Shown here in pieces: positions 1 through 22,127 of a stretch of 22,908 nucleotides of DNA. Source of the DNA: a virus; the IMG/VR virus record IMGVR_UViG_3300033144_002007, positions 1 through 22,908 of that record; one strand, written 5' to 3'. Made by a program: the position numbers and the translations under genes. Position 1 is the stretch's first letter; every line of letters begins with the position of its first letter. The notes under the pieces were generated by a model. It had not been told where the DNA came from. It made no database searches and saw nothing but the letters and a program-made list of their open reading frames with translations.

Positions 1-1434
1 ATGCAGGAGCAGAACCCGATTGCCCCGCAGACCCGTAAATCCAATGCTCAGGAGCTTGTATTCGATACAGCCAAGGGGACAGGGCTTAAGAGTCAGTACA
101 GGCTGGCTACAGCCCGTAACGTGGACGCTGGTAAGTCTCAGGGTATTCACTACCTCCATCTTAGCGAGGAAGCCATGTACCAGGGCGGGGGTCACGATCT
201 GCTGTCTGGTCTGCTACAGTGTGTCCCGCCCGTGACAGCCCCGATTGACACGGAGATATTCAGGGAGTCCACGGCCAAGGGATACGGCAACTCGTTCCAG
301 GAGGACGTGTTTAAGGCATACGCCGAGGGAGCCTATCCGTACTATGTTCAGGATGACATCACATACGCTTGGTACTCTCCAACGTCTGATTGGGTATTAG
401 TATTCATCCCCTGGTTTGTACACCCGTGGTATTCCATGCCGTTTGAGGGTGAGGCCCAAAAAGAAGCTATCTTATTGAAAATCAAGAAGAAAGTCTTCAA
501 TAAAGACGCTATGAAATGGGGGGACAGCGAAGAAAAGAAGCTACGGGACAAGCTCAACCTAACCTTAGAGCAACTCAACTGGCGGGCCTGGTGTATCGAG
601 AACCAGTGCAGGGGATCAATAGATATATTCAGGCAGGAGTATCCGGCAACGGTTGAGGAAGCGTTTTTATCAGGCGGCCTGAACGTGTTTGACAAGGAGT
701 TCTGCGACGAGATCGAGGCCGAGTGCGTCGGTCCTGTCCTGGTGGGTGACGTAGTGGACAGGATGGGCAAGCCGAAGATCAGGCGAAACAAGCACGGTCA
801 TTTCAGGCTGTGGGAAAAGCCGGACGAGAACAAAGACTATGTGATGCTGATTGATAGTGCTGGTGGCATAAAGCAGTCACACAGGGACGAGAACAGAGAG
901 CCGGACCCTTCCTGTATTGACGTATTTGAGCATGTTTCCGGCAAGCAGGTTGCTCAATGGCACGGGCATATAGATTACGACATGATAGCCGATACTGCCG
1001 AAATGATCGGGCTTATTTACGGCAAGGCCATAGCGTGCGTCGAGCTTAACAACCATGGCTATACGGTGGTTGCTGATCTGGCACGCAAAAAATATCCCAT
1101 GTATGAGGCAAGGCCAAACGAGCCCGGCTGGCTGACCACTAAGAAGACCAAGCCGCAAATGGTGGATGACCTGATTCGTATGGCAAGAGATGGGCAGTTG
1201 CAGATTATGTGCAAGGAGACGGTATCGGAGATGCGGACATTCGTGGAGGAGTCCGGCAAATACGGCGCTGCTTCGGGATGCCATGACGAGAGGGTTGATA
1301 CGGCGGGCATGGCGGCCTGTATGATGACCATGCTGCCGAGGCGATTCCGAGAGCCACAAAAGGAGGCGGGAATAATTAACTGGTTAAACAAGGGCCAGAA
1401 AAAGCAGGAATATCAAGAGGTGTATGTACCATGA
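1..1434 (+). CDS. terL: Terminase large subunit, 5'-truncated by the window edge
   Basis: This is the DNA-packaging motor: an N-terminal ATPase that drives DNA into the procapsid through the portal, and a C-terminal RNase H-like nuclease that cuts the concatemer. Visible motifs are a Walker B/catalytic-Glu region (LHLSEEAMY, residues 52-60), a coupling-type motif ESTAKG (89-94), and nuclease acidic positions: D285 in MLIDSAGG, E348 in VELNNHG, and HDER at 428-431 with D433. Walker A normally lies about 80-100 residues before Walker B, and only 54 residues are present here. The ATG at position 1 is therefore probably an internal Met and the true start is upstream. The stop overlaps the next gene by ATGA. 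The family call is firm; the exact terminase subfamily is not. Confidence 0.93.
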   Translation: MQEQNPIAPQTRKSNAQELVFDTAKGTGLKSQYRLATARNVDAGKSQGIHYLHLSEEAMYQGGGHDLLSGLLQCVPPVTAPIDTEIFRESTAKGYGNSFQEDVFKAYAEGAYPYYVQDDITYAWYSPTSDWVLVFIPWFVHPWYSMPFEGEAQKEAILLKIKKKVFNKDAMKWGDSEEKKLRDKLNLTLEQLNWRAWCIENQCRGSIDIFRQEYPATVEEAFLSGGLNVFDKEFCDEIEAECVGPVLVGDVVDRMGKPKIRRNKHGHFRLWEKPDENKDYVMLIDSAGGIKQSHRDENREPDPSCIDVFEHVSGKQVAQWHGHIDYDMIADTAEMIGLIYGKAIACVELNNHGYTVVADLARKKYPMYEARPNEPGWLTTKKTKPQMVDDLIRMARDGQLQIMCKETVSEMRTFVEESGKYGAASGCHDERVDTAGMAACMMTMLPRRFREPQKEAGIINWLNKGQKKQEYQEVYVP

Positions 1435-1658
1435 TTACTCTAACCCCGCCTGACAAATGCCCCGCTTGTGGCTTGGAGCACGAAAAGGCCAAGGATGAGG
1501 GATTTGAGGACGGTTTCCTAATGTTCTCCATCCCCACGGCTGGCGTTTGTCATTACACATGCCCTCGTTGTTTCTGCGTAATGATGAACCGTGAGTGCTT
1601 TGAGAACCAGGCAGCGATTAAGGAAGCAAGCGAGTCCAGAATAGTAGGGGTGAGATAA
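1431..1658 (+). CDS. Small zinc-ribbon-like protein
   Basis: A 75-residue protein of unknown role. It has two CxxC pairs: CPAC at residues 10-13 and CPRC at 44-47, with extra cysteines at 40 and 49. This arrangement fits one structural zinc site. The start is supported by the ATGA overlap with the terminase stop and by AGAGG about 10 bases upstream, so it is probably translationally coupled. Its stop overlaps an ATG (TAATG) at 1658. Its position just after the terminase could suggest a packaging or DNA-binding accessory, but nothing in the sequence proves that. Confidence 0.75.
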   Translation: MITLTPPDKCPACGLEHEKAKDEGFEDGFLMFSIPTAGVCHYTCPRCFCVMMNRECFENQAAIKEASESRIVGVR

Positions 1659-1695: not shown

Positions 1696-1863
1696 GTGTA
1701 TTCGGACACGGAGTCCGGTGCGGCTCAAAAAGAACTGGAACGAATGCTAAGAGAGCAAATCCGCAGAAAGACCGGCTATGCGCCTAAGAGACGCAAGCGA
1801 TTTCCGGAGAAATGGCTGAGATGGATTGCAAAGAACACGGGGAAGTTGAATGCCAAAAGTTAA
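1696..1863 (+). CDS. Small basic hypothetical protein, possibly frameshifted at its 5' end
   Basis: A 55-residue, Lys/Arg-rich, probably helical protein (for example GYAPKRRKRFPEKWLRWIA) if started at GTG 1696. GGAG at 1679-1682 lies 13 bases upstream, which is longer than usual. A better-placed ATG at 1658 overlaps the previous stop as TAATG, but its frame closes at 1750 after 30 residues. Joining the two frames near the CCC at 1693-1695 would give one 68-residue protein. So this may be a GTG-started gene, or one gene broken by a missing base. The function is not recognised. Its 3' end overlaps the next gene by 14 bases. Confidence 0.5.
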   Translation: MYSDTESGAAQKELERMLREQIRRKTGYAPKRRKRFPEKWLRWIAKNTGKLNAKS

Positions 1864-2005
1864 GAAGAATGAGTCCGGAAAAGATTATATAGCACGCTGT
1901 ATTCCTGTCAGGCGCAGGGAGCATCCCGACGAGTCCCGTGAGCGATCCATCAGGGTGTGCTTTGAGCTATGGCGTGAACACAAAAACACGAAAGGGGCAA
2001 AATGA
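1850..2005 (+). CDS. Short basic hypothetical protein
   Basis: A 51-residue ORF. It starts with ATG preceded by GGGGA at 1839-1843, a good ribosome-binding site with about six bases of spacing. It overlaps the previous gene by 14 bases, and its TGA overlaps the GroES-like ATG as ATGA. The product is highly charged: RRREHP and ESRERS in the middle, and the C-terminal half (about residues 33-46) could be a helix. It has no recognised domain. The tight overlaps on both sides and the good SD site make it more likely real than chance despite its length. Confidence 0.6.
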   Translation: MPKVKKNESGKDYIARCIPVRRREHPDESRERSIRVCFELWREHKNTKGAK

Positions 2006-2265
2006 ATCTCATGCCATTAGGCCAGAGAGTTCTTGTTAAGCGCAAGCCGGAATTGACACAAACAAAGGGTGGGATATTCATACCCGACTCATGCACAGAA
2101 AAACCAATGGAGGGTGAAATTGTTAGTATTGGTGATGAGGTCGAGAAGGTTAAGGCTGGCGACAAGGTGCTGTTTGCGAAGTTTGCAGGCGTTGAAATTG
2201 TCTCAAACGATGATGGTCAGTTCCTAATCATGGCCGAACAGGAAATATTGGGGAAAATTGAATGA
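2002..2265 (+). CDS. groES: GroES-type co-chaperonin (Cpn10 family)
   Basis: This is the lid of the GroEL folding cage; a phage copy would act in the host cytoplasm, probably on virion proteins. The 87-residue product keeps the family signature: PLGQRVLVK (5-13); a mobile loop with GGIFI (23-27), where the hydrophobic IFI would contact GroEL like IVL of E. coli GroES; GDKVLF (53-58); and a C-terminal FLIMAEQEIL (74-83). It is shorter than the usual ~95-97 residues. The missing part is the roof hairpin, leaving only about five residues between the IGD turn and KAGD. AAAGGGG ends four bases before the ATG, and both ends overlap neighbours by ATGA. No GroEL gene is in the window, so a host GroEL partner is inferred. 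Confidence 0.93.
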   Translation: MNLMPLGQRVLVKRKPELTQTKGGIFIPDSCTEKPMEGEIVSIGDEVEKVKAGDKVLFAKFAGVEIVSNDDGQFLIMAEQEILGKIE

Positions 2266-2759
2266 CTGAATCAAACGTAATCAAATTAGACTGGTACGGG
2301 GATTACGACATCCAAGTAATCCCAAGCACAAAAAGCGGGGAGGCTTATTCTACTGTTGGTGGTTTTAAAATAGACCAGGATTGGGGCGGAATGAGAGAGC
2401 TAAAAAATGGTTATCAGGCAATCTACCACAAGACATTTATGTTCCGTGTTGCGCCATGGTTAAACAACGAGATCATAACAAAATTTCTTGTTAATGTAGA
2501 AAAGATATATTTATTAAAGCAACTCGGCGTAAACGGCCTTCCACCCGTTGAAAGATTAATTAAAGCAGGGGGCGAAAAGGTCTCGGCCGCAACCGAAGAA
2601 CTTGTTGAAGATGTGGCAGACATGTTTCTAAATGAGTTGTTGAAAGAGAAAACAAAAGATAAAGAGATATATTATTTTCAAAGAGCAAAGTGGAGAATCC
2701 ACAACGAACACAACGAGATTATTAGAGCAAGGTTTAATTTCTTAATACTGGACAAATAA
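2262..2759 (+). CDS. Hypothetical protein
   Basis: A 165-residue soluble-looking protein that I do not recognise. The first half has mixed beta/aromatic character (LDWYGDYDIQVIP). The second half is helical and charged, with KVSAATEELVEDVADMF around residues 106-122. It starts at an ATGA overlap with the co-chaperonin gene and ends one base before the next ATG, so it belongs to the same transcription unit. Its wording is more A/T-rich than the terminase and portal genes (many AAA, TTA and ATA codons), which could indicate a later acquisition. No membrane segment or signal peptide is visible. Confidence 0.75.
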   Translation: MTESNVIKLDWYGDYDIQVIPSTKSGEAYSTVGGFKIDQDWGGMRELKNGYQAIYHKTFMFRVAPWLNNEIITKFLVNVEKIYLLKQLGVNGLPPVERLIKAGGEKVSAATEELVEDVADMFLNELLKEKTKDKEIYYFQRAKWRIHNEHNEIIRARFNFLILDK

Positions 2760-6949: not shown

Positions 6950-7534
6950 GTGTCCAATACCGATGCGGCCTTCGGACTTAGAGTCTGGGGCGAATTGTTA
7001 GGCGCTCATTTATACGGCGTGGCCACAGCATACGGCACGGCCATATATCTTGGCACTATGATGGAGCACAACGGGACTTCCTATGCCACCAAGTACGGTG
7101 GCGGGATACCTGGATGTGCAGTGGAAGAAACTGGTGCGGCAGGCAGTATTTTGGGTGCCGCCATAGCGATATTCGATTCTGACATGGATCCTGTTAATTA
7201 TCTGGCCGCCAGCACGACCGGCGACGGGGTAGTGGCGGGGTATGTGCTGATTGCAGATCATCCGATGCAGAAGTTTCTGGCGCAGGAAGATGGCGACACA
7301 ACGCCTGTTGCAGCAGCCTCAATCGGCTTAAATGCCGACATGATCGGAACGGGTGGAAGCACTACGACCGGAGTATCAACAATGGAGATAGACTCTGACA
7401 CCGTTAACACGACCAGCACGTTAGCAGTTAAGATTCTCTCATCCCATCCTGATGATACCATTGCTTCGGCGTATTGCAGGTTTATCGTAATGATTAACTC
7501 ACATCACAATGCACCCAACATAGATGGTGTATAG
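6950..7534 (+). CDS. Capsid decoration/stabilisation protein
   Basis: A 194-residue beta-rich, Gly/Ala/Thr-rich protein. It matches my memory of small structural proteins encoded just before the major capsid gene in many environmental podoviruses: an N-terminal AFGLRVWGEL-type opening, a central AVGLNAD-like segment here read as ASIGLNADMIG, then GVSTMEIDSDTVNTTSTL and a terminal IVMINSHHN. It starts with GTG, supported by a near-perfect TAAGGAGGT (6936-6944) five bases upstream. This implies strong translation, as for other capsid-block genes. The role on the capsid surface is inferred from family context. Confidence 0.75.
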   Translation: MSNTDAAFGLRVWGELLGAHLYGVATAYGTAIYLGTMMEHNGTSYATKYGGGIPGCAVEETGAAGSILGAAIAIFDSDMDPVNYLAASTTGDGVVAGYVLIADHPMQKFLAQEDGDTTPVAAASIGLNADMIGTGGSTTTGVSTMEIDSDTVNTTSTLAVKILSSHPDDTIASAYCRFIVMINSHHNAPNIDGV

Positions 7535-7543
7535 GAGGGTATT

Positions 7544-8470
7544 ATGTGGACAAGAGCGAGATTCGTAGATGAGTACGTACCAGGATTATTCGCTGTTGCT
7601 ATTGATACCTACACCACGAACCGTGCCGAAGCGATGTGGGATAAGTTAGTAACAGTGAAGACCTCGAAGAAAAAGAAAGAGGAGAATACCGAAAGATCGG
7701 GCTTGGATGTTCCTATCCTGAAGCCGGAGGGGCAGCCGATTAGTTATGATACTCAGCTTAAAGGAGCAAAACAAAGCTGGATTCATGACGTCTATGCCCT
7801 TGGTGTTCGTATAACGGAAGAGGCCGTTGATGATAACCTTTATGAGTTAAAGGGCGGCAGCGAAGGCGACCTGAAAGAAATCTTCCATGATCTTGGAGAG
7901 GCAATGGGCAACAACCTCGAAGTGCTCATGGCAAGGTTTCTGAATAGCGCAACCGCTACGACCTATCACACGGAAAGAGATGGTTCCACGGCTCTTATCT
8001 CTGATTCTCATACCCTGTTGGGCGGGACTACGTTTGATAACAAATCCACAAACGCAGACCTTACCTATTCGGCCTTTTGGTCGGTCCTGGTTGCTGCTGA
8101 AAACCAGTACAACCACAGGGGCCATAGGGTAAAGAAAAGAGTCGAGAAGCTTTGGTTCCCCCCACAGCTTGAGAGGAAGGCTTTGGAGATCCTGAAGTCA
8201 ACCGACAGGCCGGACACGGCAAACAGGGCTGTATCAGCCTATGCGCAGAGTGGCCGGAAGATTCAAGCCATGAACTGGAACCAACTGACCGACACCGATG
8301 CGTGGCACATGCAGTTGGAAGGGGACGGGATTATCTTTTTCTGGAGACGTAAGACTCGATTCGCAAGAGAAGGGGACTTCCAGACCGGAGATTTAATGGT
8401 GAAGGCAGACCAGAGATTCTCCGCTGAGATCAATGATTACAGATCCTTCTATTCAAATGTCCCTGCATAA
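7544..8470 (+). CDS. Major capsid protein (HK97 fold)
   Basis: The building block of the icosahedral head. At 308 residues it is within the HK97-fold range. Recognisable parts are: a charged Lys/Glu-rich stretch at 41-51, which could lie in the E-loop; a long acidic spine-helix region (KEIFHDLGEAMGNNLEVLMA, 111-130); a P-domain segment LWFPPQLERKALEIL (203-217); LTDTDAWHM (248-256); and the C-terminal signature REGDFQTGDLMVKADQRFSA (275-294) followed by NDYRSFYSN, common to capsid proteins of this class. AGGAGGGT sits four bases before the ATG. No cleavage site or fused protease is evident. The gap after it is rich in RNA structure. Confidence 0.9.
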   Translation: MWTRARFVDEYVPGLFAVAIDTYTTNRAEAMWDKLVTVKTSKKKKEENTERSGLDVPILKPEGQPISYDTQLKGAKQSWIHDVYALGVRITEEAVDDNLYELKGGSEGDLKEIFHDLGEAMGNNLEVLMARFLNSATATTYHTERDGSTALISDSHTLLGGTTFDNKSTNADLTYSAFWSVLVAAENQYNHRGHRVKKRVEKLWFPPQLERKALEILKSTDRPDTANRAVSAYAQSGRKIQAMNWNQLTDTDAWHMQLEGDGIIFFWRRKTRFAREGDFQTGDLMVKADQRFSAEINDYRSFYSNVPA

Positions 8471-13875: not shown

Positions 13876-14442
13876 GTGGCCGAATACGACGTTGCTTTAT
13901 CGGAATCTTTATCTGCCGATGATGCGTTGGCAGTCGGGTGGACTGCTGAATGTATTTTGGCCGAGTCGCTTTCTTCTGATGACGCCTTAGCGGTTGCAAC
14001 TGGCGTTACGCTAAACGAGTCCTTATCGTCTAATGATGTATTAGCAATAAACTGGACCGCATATCCATCAATAGCCGAATCGCTATCGTCTGACGACACA
14101 AATGCGGTTAACTGGACGGCCTATTGTGCCATTGCAGAGGGTCTGTCTGCTGATTACACGGACGTTGTTGACCATTCAAACGTGTATGGCAGGTTCAGGG
14201 AGTCGCTTAATTACAACGGGAACACATTACAGCTTAAGATTCAAAACAACATAGTCGGACAAACCATCTTGTTGGAAGATATAGGATTGCTTCTTTATGC
14301 TAATGAGGTCCAGCGACAAAACACTTATGGCATGAATCTTAAGAATCAAAGTATTCGATTAAAGGTTCAGAACAACACGGTTGATGAAATTGTTCACCTG
14401 TTTTCGATTGGTGTAAAAATTTACAGCAACGAGGCCCGATGA
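13876..14442 (+). CDS. Repeat-containing tail appendage-like protein
   Basis: A 188-residue protein that starts with GTG, supported by AGAGGT ending five bases upstream. The N-terminal half consists of about five 18-20-residue repeats of the type ESLSSDDALAVNWTAY, with the ESL/EGL word at residues 10, 30, 48, 68 and 88. The C-terminal half has two ~36-residue copies: residues 110-145 with LKIQNN and LLLYANE, and residues 152-187 with LKVQNN and VKIYSNE. This looks like a modular fibre or linker protein. The stop overlaps the next ATG as ATGA. Function is inferred only from repeats and position. Confidence 0.7.
   Translation: MAEYDVALSESLSADDALAVGWTAECILAESLSSDDALAVATGVTLNESLSSNDVLAINWTAYPSIAESLSSDDTNAVNWTAYCAIAEGLSADYTDVVDHSNVYGRFRESLNYNGNTLQLKIQNNIVGQTILLEDIGLLLYANEVQRQNTYGMNLKNQSIRLKVQNNTVDEIVHLFSIGVKIYSNEAR
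13894..14175 (+). repeat. Five degenerate ~60-bp in-frame repeats
   Basis: These encode the ESLSSDDALAVNWTAY-type units of the protein at 13876. Spacings are 60, 54, 60 and 60 bases, so one unit is shorter by two codons. The DNA words have diverged (TCG/TCC/TCT swaps), while the protein pattern is kept. Confidence 0.75.
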
Positions 14443-21551: not shown

Positions 21552-22127
21552 ATGCCAACTGAACATCATGACGGCAAACAAGGGGTAACTGCCTCGGTTG
21601 AACCGGCTACGTTAATAAATGTTAAGATCGTAGAGATAGAAAAAACCGTAGAGGTTCCTAAGTTCAAATCCGTAAGCGTGGATAAGCCCGTCTTTGTTGA
21701 CAAGGAATATGAGCGACCCGTCCCCGTTGACAAGGAATATGAGCGACCCGTCCCCGTTGACAAGGAATACGAAAGACCGATTGTTAAGAATAAGGAAGTC
21801 GTTGTCGAAGTGCCCGTGCCGCTCGAGAAGCCATACGATATGCCAGTGCCAAAAGAGGTCCCATACGAGCTTCCCGTTGTGACCATGAAAGAAGTTTCCA
21901 GTGCGGCGCTTGAGGCTACTTCGATTCTAAAAGATGCAAAAGCCATGCTGAAGGAAGTTGAGGGGTTTGTGAAAATTCTTGGAGACACCGTGGCTGATAT
22001 TAAAAACAAGCTCCCAGAAGAAATCAAGATGCCAAAGCTAAAGCACGAGGAAATCGTTGTGAAGGACGTGAGGGTTGTGGAAGAAACCATACATGTTATC
22101 GGCAAAGTTATAACAAAAGAAAGATAA
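21552..22127 (+). CDS. Alveolin-like Val/Pro/Lys/Glu repeat protein
   Basis: A 191-residue protein. Residues ~25-110 form a chain of short V-x-K-x-V-x-P units; the clearest is the ten-residue PVPVDKEYER repeated in tandem. A helix follows at ~113-150 (EATSILKDAKAMLKEVEGFV), then another Val/Glu-rich segment. The repeat style resembles the EKxVPV repeats of alveolins, the membrane-skeleton proteins of alveolate protists, and similar motifs occur in other phage structural proteins as far as I recall. A homotypic filament or linker on the particle is possible. AAGGAGG precedes the ATG. Confidence 0.7.
   Translation: MPTEHHDGKQGVTASVEPATLINVKIVEIEKTVEVPKFKSVSVDKPVFVDKEYERPVPVDKEYERPVPVDKEYERPIVKNKEVVVEVPVPLEKPYDMPVPKEVPYELPVVTMKEVSSAALEATSILKDAKAMLKEVEGFVKILGDTVADIKNKLPEEIKMPKLKHEEIVVKDVRVVEETIHVIGKVITKER
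21696..21785 (+). repeat. Tandem 30-bp repeat, two perfect and one degenerate copy
   Basis: Units start at 21696, 21726 and 21756. Units 1 and 2 are identical over 30 bases; unit 3 begins alike (GTTGACAAGGAATA) and then diverges. The unit equals ten codons, so copy-number changes keep the frame. The identity suggests a recent duplication. Confidence 0.9.

Follow-up and report, generated by a model that had tools for sequence, protein, structure and literature searches.

We found that a phage genome fragment encodes a GroES-type co-chaperonin from which exactly the roof hairpin is missing, whereas its GroEL-binding mobile loop has the same length and motif as that of bacterial GroES. The gene lies between terminase and portal genes in the window, i.e., the whole stretch of 22,908 nucleotides that was analyzed (IMG/VR record IMGVR_UViG_3300033144_002007, positions 1 to 22,908), and the same loss recurs in unrelated phages. 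The protein is probably a GroES-derived roofless cap for host GroEL that would aid the folding of late phage proteins.

The cpn10 (groES) open reading frame starts with ATG, and its 87 codons translate to MNLMPLGQRVLVKRKPELTQTKGGIFIPDSCTEKPMEGEIVSIGDEVEKVKAGDKVLFAKFAGVEIVSNDDGQFLIMAEQEILGKIE (cf. Table 1). The protein matched Pfam PF00166 (Cpn10) with E=1.9e-22 and 79.5 bits, compared with a cut-off of 21.1, covering profile positions 2–93 of 93, and its match in PHROGs was phrog_3188, annotated as 'co-chaperonin GroES' (1.1e-21). A preliminary description of this DNA had proposed a phage GroES between terminase and portal and a capsid protein of only 308 residues. These assignments were borne out by the two cpn10 matches, by the flanking proteins, which match phrog_24361 and phrog_38407 on one side and phrog_332 and phrog_156 on the other, and by a match of the ORF at 7544 to PF25209.

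At both its start and its stop codon, cpn10 overlaps the neighboring gene in an ATGA, and a Shine-Dalgarno-like GGGG run is found upstream of the start; the gene hence belongs to a tightly packed operon that runs from terminase to portal. Among the cpn10 genes of the window and of two related contigs, L114 and L099, synonymous sites are saturated (pS 0.75–0.86, compared with pN 0.22–0.30), so for dN/dS the contrast of pS with pN alone is quotable; from this contrast we conclude that cpn10 is under purifying selection and is no chance ORF. The 165-aa ORF that follows it gave no match in Pfam or PHROGs. The terminase ORF comprises 477 aa, compared with 557–604 aa in intact relatives. It is thus truncated by the window start, and the record is a fragment; a phage GroEL may be encoded elsewhere in the genome, beyond this record. 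Two proteins farther downstream, both without a Pfam match, contain repeats: in the one encoded at 13876–14442, a unit of the ESLSSDDALAVxWTA type occurs in at least four imperfect tandem copies, and the one at 21552–22127 has three consecutive VPVDKEYERP-like repeats.

Table 1. Position of cpn10, its structural elements and the surrounding genes in the window
Feature	Position	Strand	Basis
Terminase large subunit, N-terminus cut by window start	1..1434	+	phrog_24361 1.1e-22, phrog_38407 1.1e-28
Small ORF with two CxxC pairs	1431..1658	+	Conserved 5' neighbor of cpn10; homologues in L082, L098, L099, L114
Small ORF, stop overlaps cpn10 start (ATGA)	1850..2005	+	Sequence; homologues in L082, L101, L112
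cpn10 (groES) gene, 87 aa, roofless	2002..2265	+	PF00166 1.9e-22; phrog_3188 1.1e-21; AlphaFold model
GroEL-binding mobile loop, GGIFIPDS motif, residues about 21–34	2062..2103	+	Alignment of 18 sequences
Missing-roof site, Gly44–Gly53, spacing 9 compared with 18	2131..2160	+	Spacing counts, AlphaFold model, full-roof control
165-aa ORF, start overlaps cpn10 stop (ATGA)	2262..2759	+	Also 3' of full-roof cpn10 in L082
Portal protein, 600 aa	2949..4751	+	phrog_332 5.6e-7, phrog_156 2.2e-4
Major capsid protein, 308 aa	7544..8470	+	PF25209 Phage_capsid_4 2.4e-6; 307–309 aa in relatives

To describe the roof we counted the residues between two conserved glycines, i.e., Gly44 and the glycine of the xGD motif. 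This spacing is 9 in the window protein compared with 18 in enterobacterial GroES, so that exactly nine residues are absent, where the preliminary description had placed a gap of about nine. HMMER alignments to solved GroES chains opened the gap at the same place. In T4 Gp31, the equivalent glycines are separated by 11 residues, as counted by eye in the translated gene, and the window protein is slightly shorter here. Structures were predicted with AlphaFold as single chains from the same 18 sequences (window protein and fetched loci), with either the window protein or the full-roof protein of the relative L082 as target. The window model had a mean pLDDT of 80.8, with block means of 93 and 91 for residues 41–60, and showed, between strands 36–43 and 55–58, a turn predicted with confidence in place of a hairpin; a complete roof was hence not seen in this single-chain model. 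The L082 control formed a small hairpin (47–48/54–55) between strands 36–43 and 64–67. An alignment artefact as the cause of the gap was ruled out by the repeated alignments and the paired predictions. The mobile loop had earlier been judged normal in length, and indeed the span from R14 to G38 comprises 25 residues as in GroES; G23, G24, I25 and I27 of its motif were invariant in the 18-sequence alignment.

Foldseek and VIA-align comparison of the window model gave Z-scores of 9.7–12.6 with GroES/Cpn10 structures and of 10.2–10.8 with Gp31. The superposition on Thermus thermophilus Cpn10 (1wnr; Z 12.6, rmsd 1.7 over 77 residues) identified the GroES β-barrel fold. Family and fold are hence shared with bacterial GroES, including E. 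coli GroES (1aon; Z 10.1–12.6 for both). In contrast to the bacterial proteins, the window protein is devoid of the nine roof-hairpin residues, and its gene sits in a phage head-gene operon with no groEL adjacent to it.

T4 Gp31 (phrog_931; 1g31, 2cgt) is likewise a roofless phage co-chaperonin of the same fold (Z 10.2 and 10.8), but it is only 15% identical to the window protein in the structural alignment and belongs to a different PHROG family. Gp31 has no roof loops and substitutes for GroES in vitro and in vivo; its mobile loop is lengthened to 22 residues compared with 16, and its client is the capsid protein Gp23 of about 56 kDa (PMC6318259). The mobile loop of the window protein, in contrast, has GroES length. 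Gp31 itself matched phrog_931 at 3.7e-50 and did not match phrog_3188, whereas the window protein matched phrog_931 weakly (1.4e-4, residues 5–59), and hhalign of the window profile against Gp31 returned a probability of 4.6%. The suggestion that the design is intermediate between those of GroES and Gp31 was therefore not upheld, as the protein belongs with GroES. Judged by sequence, it is placed as a Cpn10/GroES outside the Gp31 sequence family that has one of the two Gp31 modifications in common.

The roof is typical of cellular GroES but is no requirement for the Cpn10/GroES family, as Gp31 and chloroplast Cpn10 are roofless too. The combination of a normal loop with a missing roof has precedents, because the roof loop was reported to be absent from Arabidopsis chloroplast Cpn10(1) and Cpn10(2), of which the roofless Cpn10(2) forms functional homo-oligomers (PMC4242682). 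These proteins are GroES-like and roofless as is the window protein, judged by their description, but they are organellar and have no phage link. The best PDB match by sequence was Chlamydomonas Cpn20 (7ekq_R; E=2.2e-22, whole chain). Its first Cpn10 domain aligns with the short segment of the window protein and is one residue shorter still; Cpn20, however, acts in mixed rings and consists of two domains, the window-like one being one half of the protein. Among phages, the Cpn10 gene of Podoviridae ct2G2228 (MW202785; phrog_3188) is surrounded, as in the window, by genes for terminase, portal and capsid, but the protein has a full roof (spacing 19), and its mobile-loop region is extended by four residues. 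A full roof combined with a mobile-loop region of 29 compared with 25 residues, the opposite of what the window protein shows, characterizes a large group of phage GroES that includes L006, L139 and related loci.

Kin of the window phage were collected by scans with its capsid, terminase and portal proteins. Their slot between terminase and portal was found in three states, with a roofless cpn10, a full-roof cpn10 or no cpn10. L114 carries a roofless Cpn10 with 66% identity to the window protein, on a contig from which the capsid gene is absent; the roofless Cpn10 of L099 is about 56% identical, and the L099 capsid protein 65% identical to that of the window. Full-roof cpn10 genes were found in L082 and L083, whose 308-aa capsid proteins share 83% and 82% identity with the window capsid protein. 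As the L082 gene is flanked by homologues of the ORFs at 1850 and 2262, it occupies the same slot as that of the window. The gene was absent from at least eight contigs showing both terminase and portal (L087, L094, L095, L100, L101, L104, L107 and L112), and no cpn10 was found in kin records of 36–61 kb that were searched whole, all of which are possibly fragments. With many close relatives lacking it in their sequenced part, we conclude that cpn10 is not essential to the lineage. In L105, a third, ct2G2228-like type of cpn10 lies near the terminase.

In a tree calculated without the roof columns, the window protein clustered with those of L114, L082 and L083 (89/92), and the addition of L099 to this group as one clade was accepted with a slightly better fit (p-AU 0.52). 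Outside the roof, the window protein is up to 59% identical to some cellular GroES, compared with 50–52% to L082 and L083. Since it is nearer to these cellular proteins, the gene in the slot may have been replaced, rather than having lost its hairpin in place.

To see how widespread the short roof is, we evaluated 70 distinct Cpn10 sequences from the first scans, three of them cellular (L074, L197, L198) and 67 from phage records. The spacing in the phage sequences was two-peaked, with 9 in 11 sequences, 11–13 in five and 17–19 in 51. Cellular Cpn10, in contrast, had a spacing of 17 or 18 in 33/33 distinct sequences, and 9 in 0/33. A model that was trained on roofless sequences only was run against two sets of 297 and 120 bacterial genomes, i.e., 417 genomes of two phyla. 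No roofless GroES was found among the matches listed; the full-length ones retained the extra residues, as read from the listed match lengths. Bacteroidota, in which the GroES roof may be partly shortened, lie outside this sample. A scan of a bacterial collection with the roofless alignment found two GroES, both with full roof.

Roofless cpn10 genes of phages unrelated to that of the window were also found close to terminase and portal genes: the order is terminase, cpn10, two small ORFs and portal in L126, terminase, other ORFs, cpn10 and portal in L076, and cpn10, terminase and portal in L119. L130 is an exception, with cpn10 beside DNA polymerase and queE-like genes. Apart from the roof, the roofless Cpn10 of L119 shares 79% identity with a bacterial GroES, and because of this closeness its gene looks recently captured, with the hairpin trimmed afterward. 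L119 was left out of the tree in which a single origin of the roofless phage Cpn10s was evaluated, being close to cellular GroES. A single origin was rejected (p-AU 0.007), but the tree is a weak one, with just 80 columns, low resolution and long branches.

The scans also brought up other arrangements of phage co-chaperonins. In L123 (7617–8366, plus strand), a 250-aa protein contains two Cpn10-like domains according to a profile built here, a divergent first domain and a GroES domain second, in a layout like that of chloroplast Cpn20; PHROGs sees the second domain alone. In L125, a 236-aa protein and a roofless Cpn10 are encoded adjacently on opposite strands (7281–7988, minus strand, and 7989–8240, plus strand). 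The 236-aa protein matches phrog_13932, a GroES family of 200 positions, and the two genes are thus both co-chaperonin-like. In Vibrio phage D69 (L077, 4010–4249, plus strand), an 80-aa protein annotated as 'hypothetical' is a roofless Cpn10, with a mobile-loop region that is also short (22 compared with 25).

The short roof might result from neutral trimming, i.e., the roof would be dispensable for a co-chaperonin with few clients, small genes would be favored, and the open top would have no special role. Consistent with this explanation, close relatives whose capsid proteins are nearly identical have either a roofed or a roofless cpn10 in one and the same slot, and chloroplast Cpn10s have lost the roof as well (PMC4242682). 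Less drift-like, however, is that several phage groups, which are not one clade, show an equally large and clean loss; a spacing of 9 occurs in 11 sequences but 10–16 in only five, and the short roof was unseen in the bacteria sampled, among the matches listed. We hence regard neutral trimming as doubtful. Because roof loss recurs in phages and was absent from the bacteria sampled, we lean towards an open top being useful rather than merely tolerated. A tentative idea is that host GroES was captured repeatedly and its roof deleted exactly as an adaptation, which would let virion clients protrude from or exit through the top of the chamber, whatever the capsid.

As in T4, the roof might be missing in order that the major capsid protein can fold in the chamber of host GroEL. 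The window cpn10 does lie within the head module, and Gp31 is the best-studied precedent (PMC6318259; PMC3012670). The window capsid protein, however, has 308 aa, compared with about 56 kDa for Gp23 (PMC6318259), and full-roof GroES stand beside capsid proteins 82–83% identical to it. The preliminary description had raised a link of the roofless GroES with particular capsid types. When this co-occurrence was analyzed, capsid proteins of 307–309 aa were found together with roofless GroES, with full-roof GroES or with none, which argues against such a link. These mixed states also refuted a general rule that ties roof loss to capsid size. The roofed L082 and L083 show that an open top is not required by the capsid type of the window. 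Roof state is hence uncoupled from capsid type and size, whether this came about by loss or by replacement, and a large capsid client is accordingly unlikely. With a 308-aa capsid protein and relatives that are roofed or, in their sequenced part, without cpn10, the oversized-capsid explanation from T4 does not fit, and we consider it unlikely for the window phage. Another virion protein may be the client, as the preliminary description had allowed. Lengths of other virion proteins, compared between roofed, roofless and cpn10-less kin, pointed to no obvious client, in few samples with many fragments.

It is also rather improbable that the phage subunit mixes or competes with host GroES and thereby alters the work of host GroEL, in the manner of chloroplast Cpn10/Cpn20. 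Barrel and mobile loop are kept in the window protein, the mixed-ring subunit Cpn20 is its best PDB match by sequence, and mixed rings have been described for chloroplast co-chaperonins (PMC5780408), but expression alongside late head genes better suits a folding client. That the protein no longer acts with chaperonins but serves as a small virion or regulatory part, as its slot among packaging genes and the frequent repurposing of phage genes might suggest, is very improbable given the GroEL-binding motif invariant in 18 sequences, the purifying selection on the gene and relatives with the same head genes in which cpn10 can be missing.

We therefore favor a roofless GroES-derived cap that works on host GroEL. 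A bacterial GroES would have been copied into a phage and its roof hairpin cleanly deleted, with the β-barrel that forms the subunit interface and the GroEL-binding mobile loop retained. Seven copies would most likely assemble into a ring and dock on host GroEL via their mobile loops as GroES does, so that the folding chamber would be closed by a dome whose apical opening is wider. Produced along with the packaging and head proteins, this cap would assist the folding of at least one late phage protein, and the capsid protein need not be a client.

Roofless Cpn10s as such have been described already, in T4 Gp31 and in the Arabidopsis chloroplast. What appears to be new within the searchable literature is a recurrent, GroES-derived class of roofless phage Cpn10s and a lineage with natural pairs of roofed and roofless forms. 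In Gp31, two changes of the cap, i.e., the longer mobile loop and the missing roof, are confounded, whereas the window lineage separates them. In this lineage, co-chaperonins with and without the roof, all with normal loops, occupy one slot beside very similar capsid proteins, so that natural pairs make the role of the roof testable. That unrelated phages, L119 among them, show the same loss suggests that it is a recurrent change in phages and not a peculiarity of T4.
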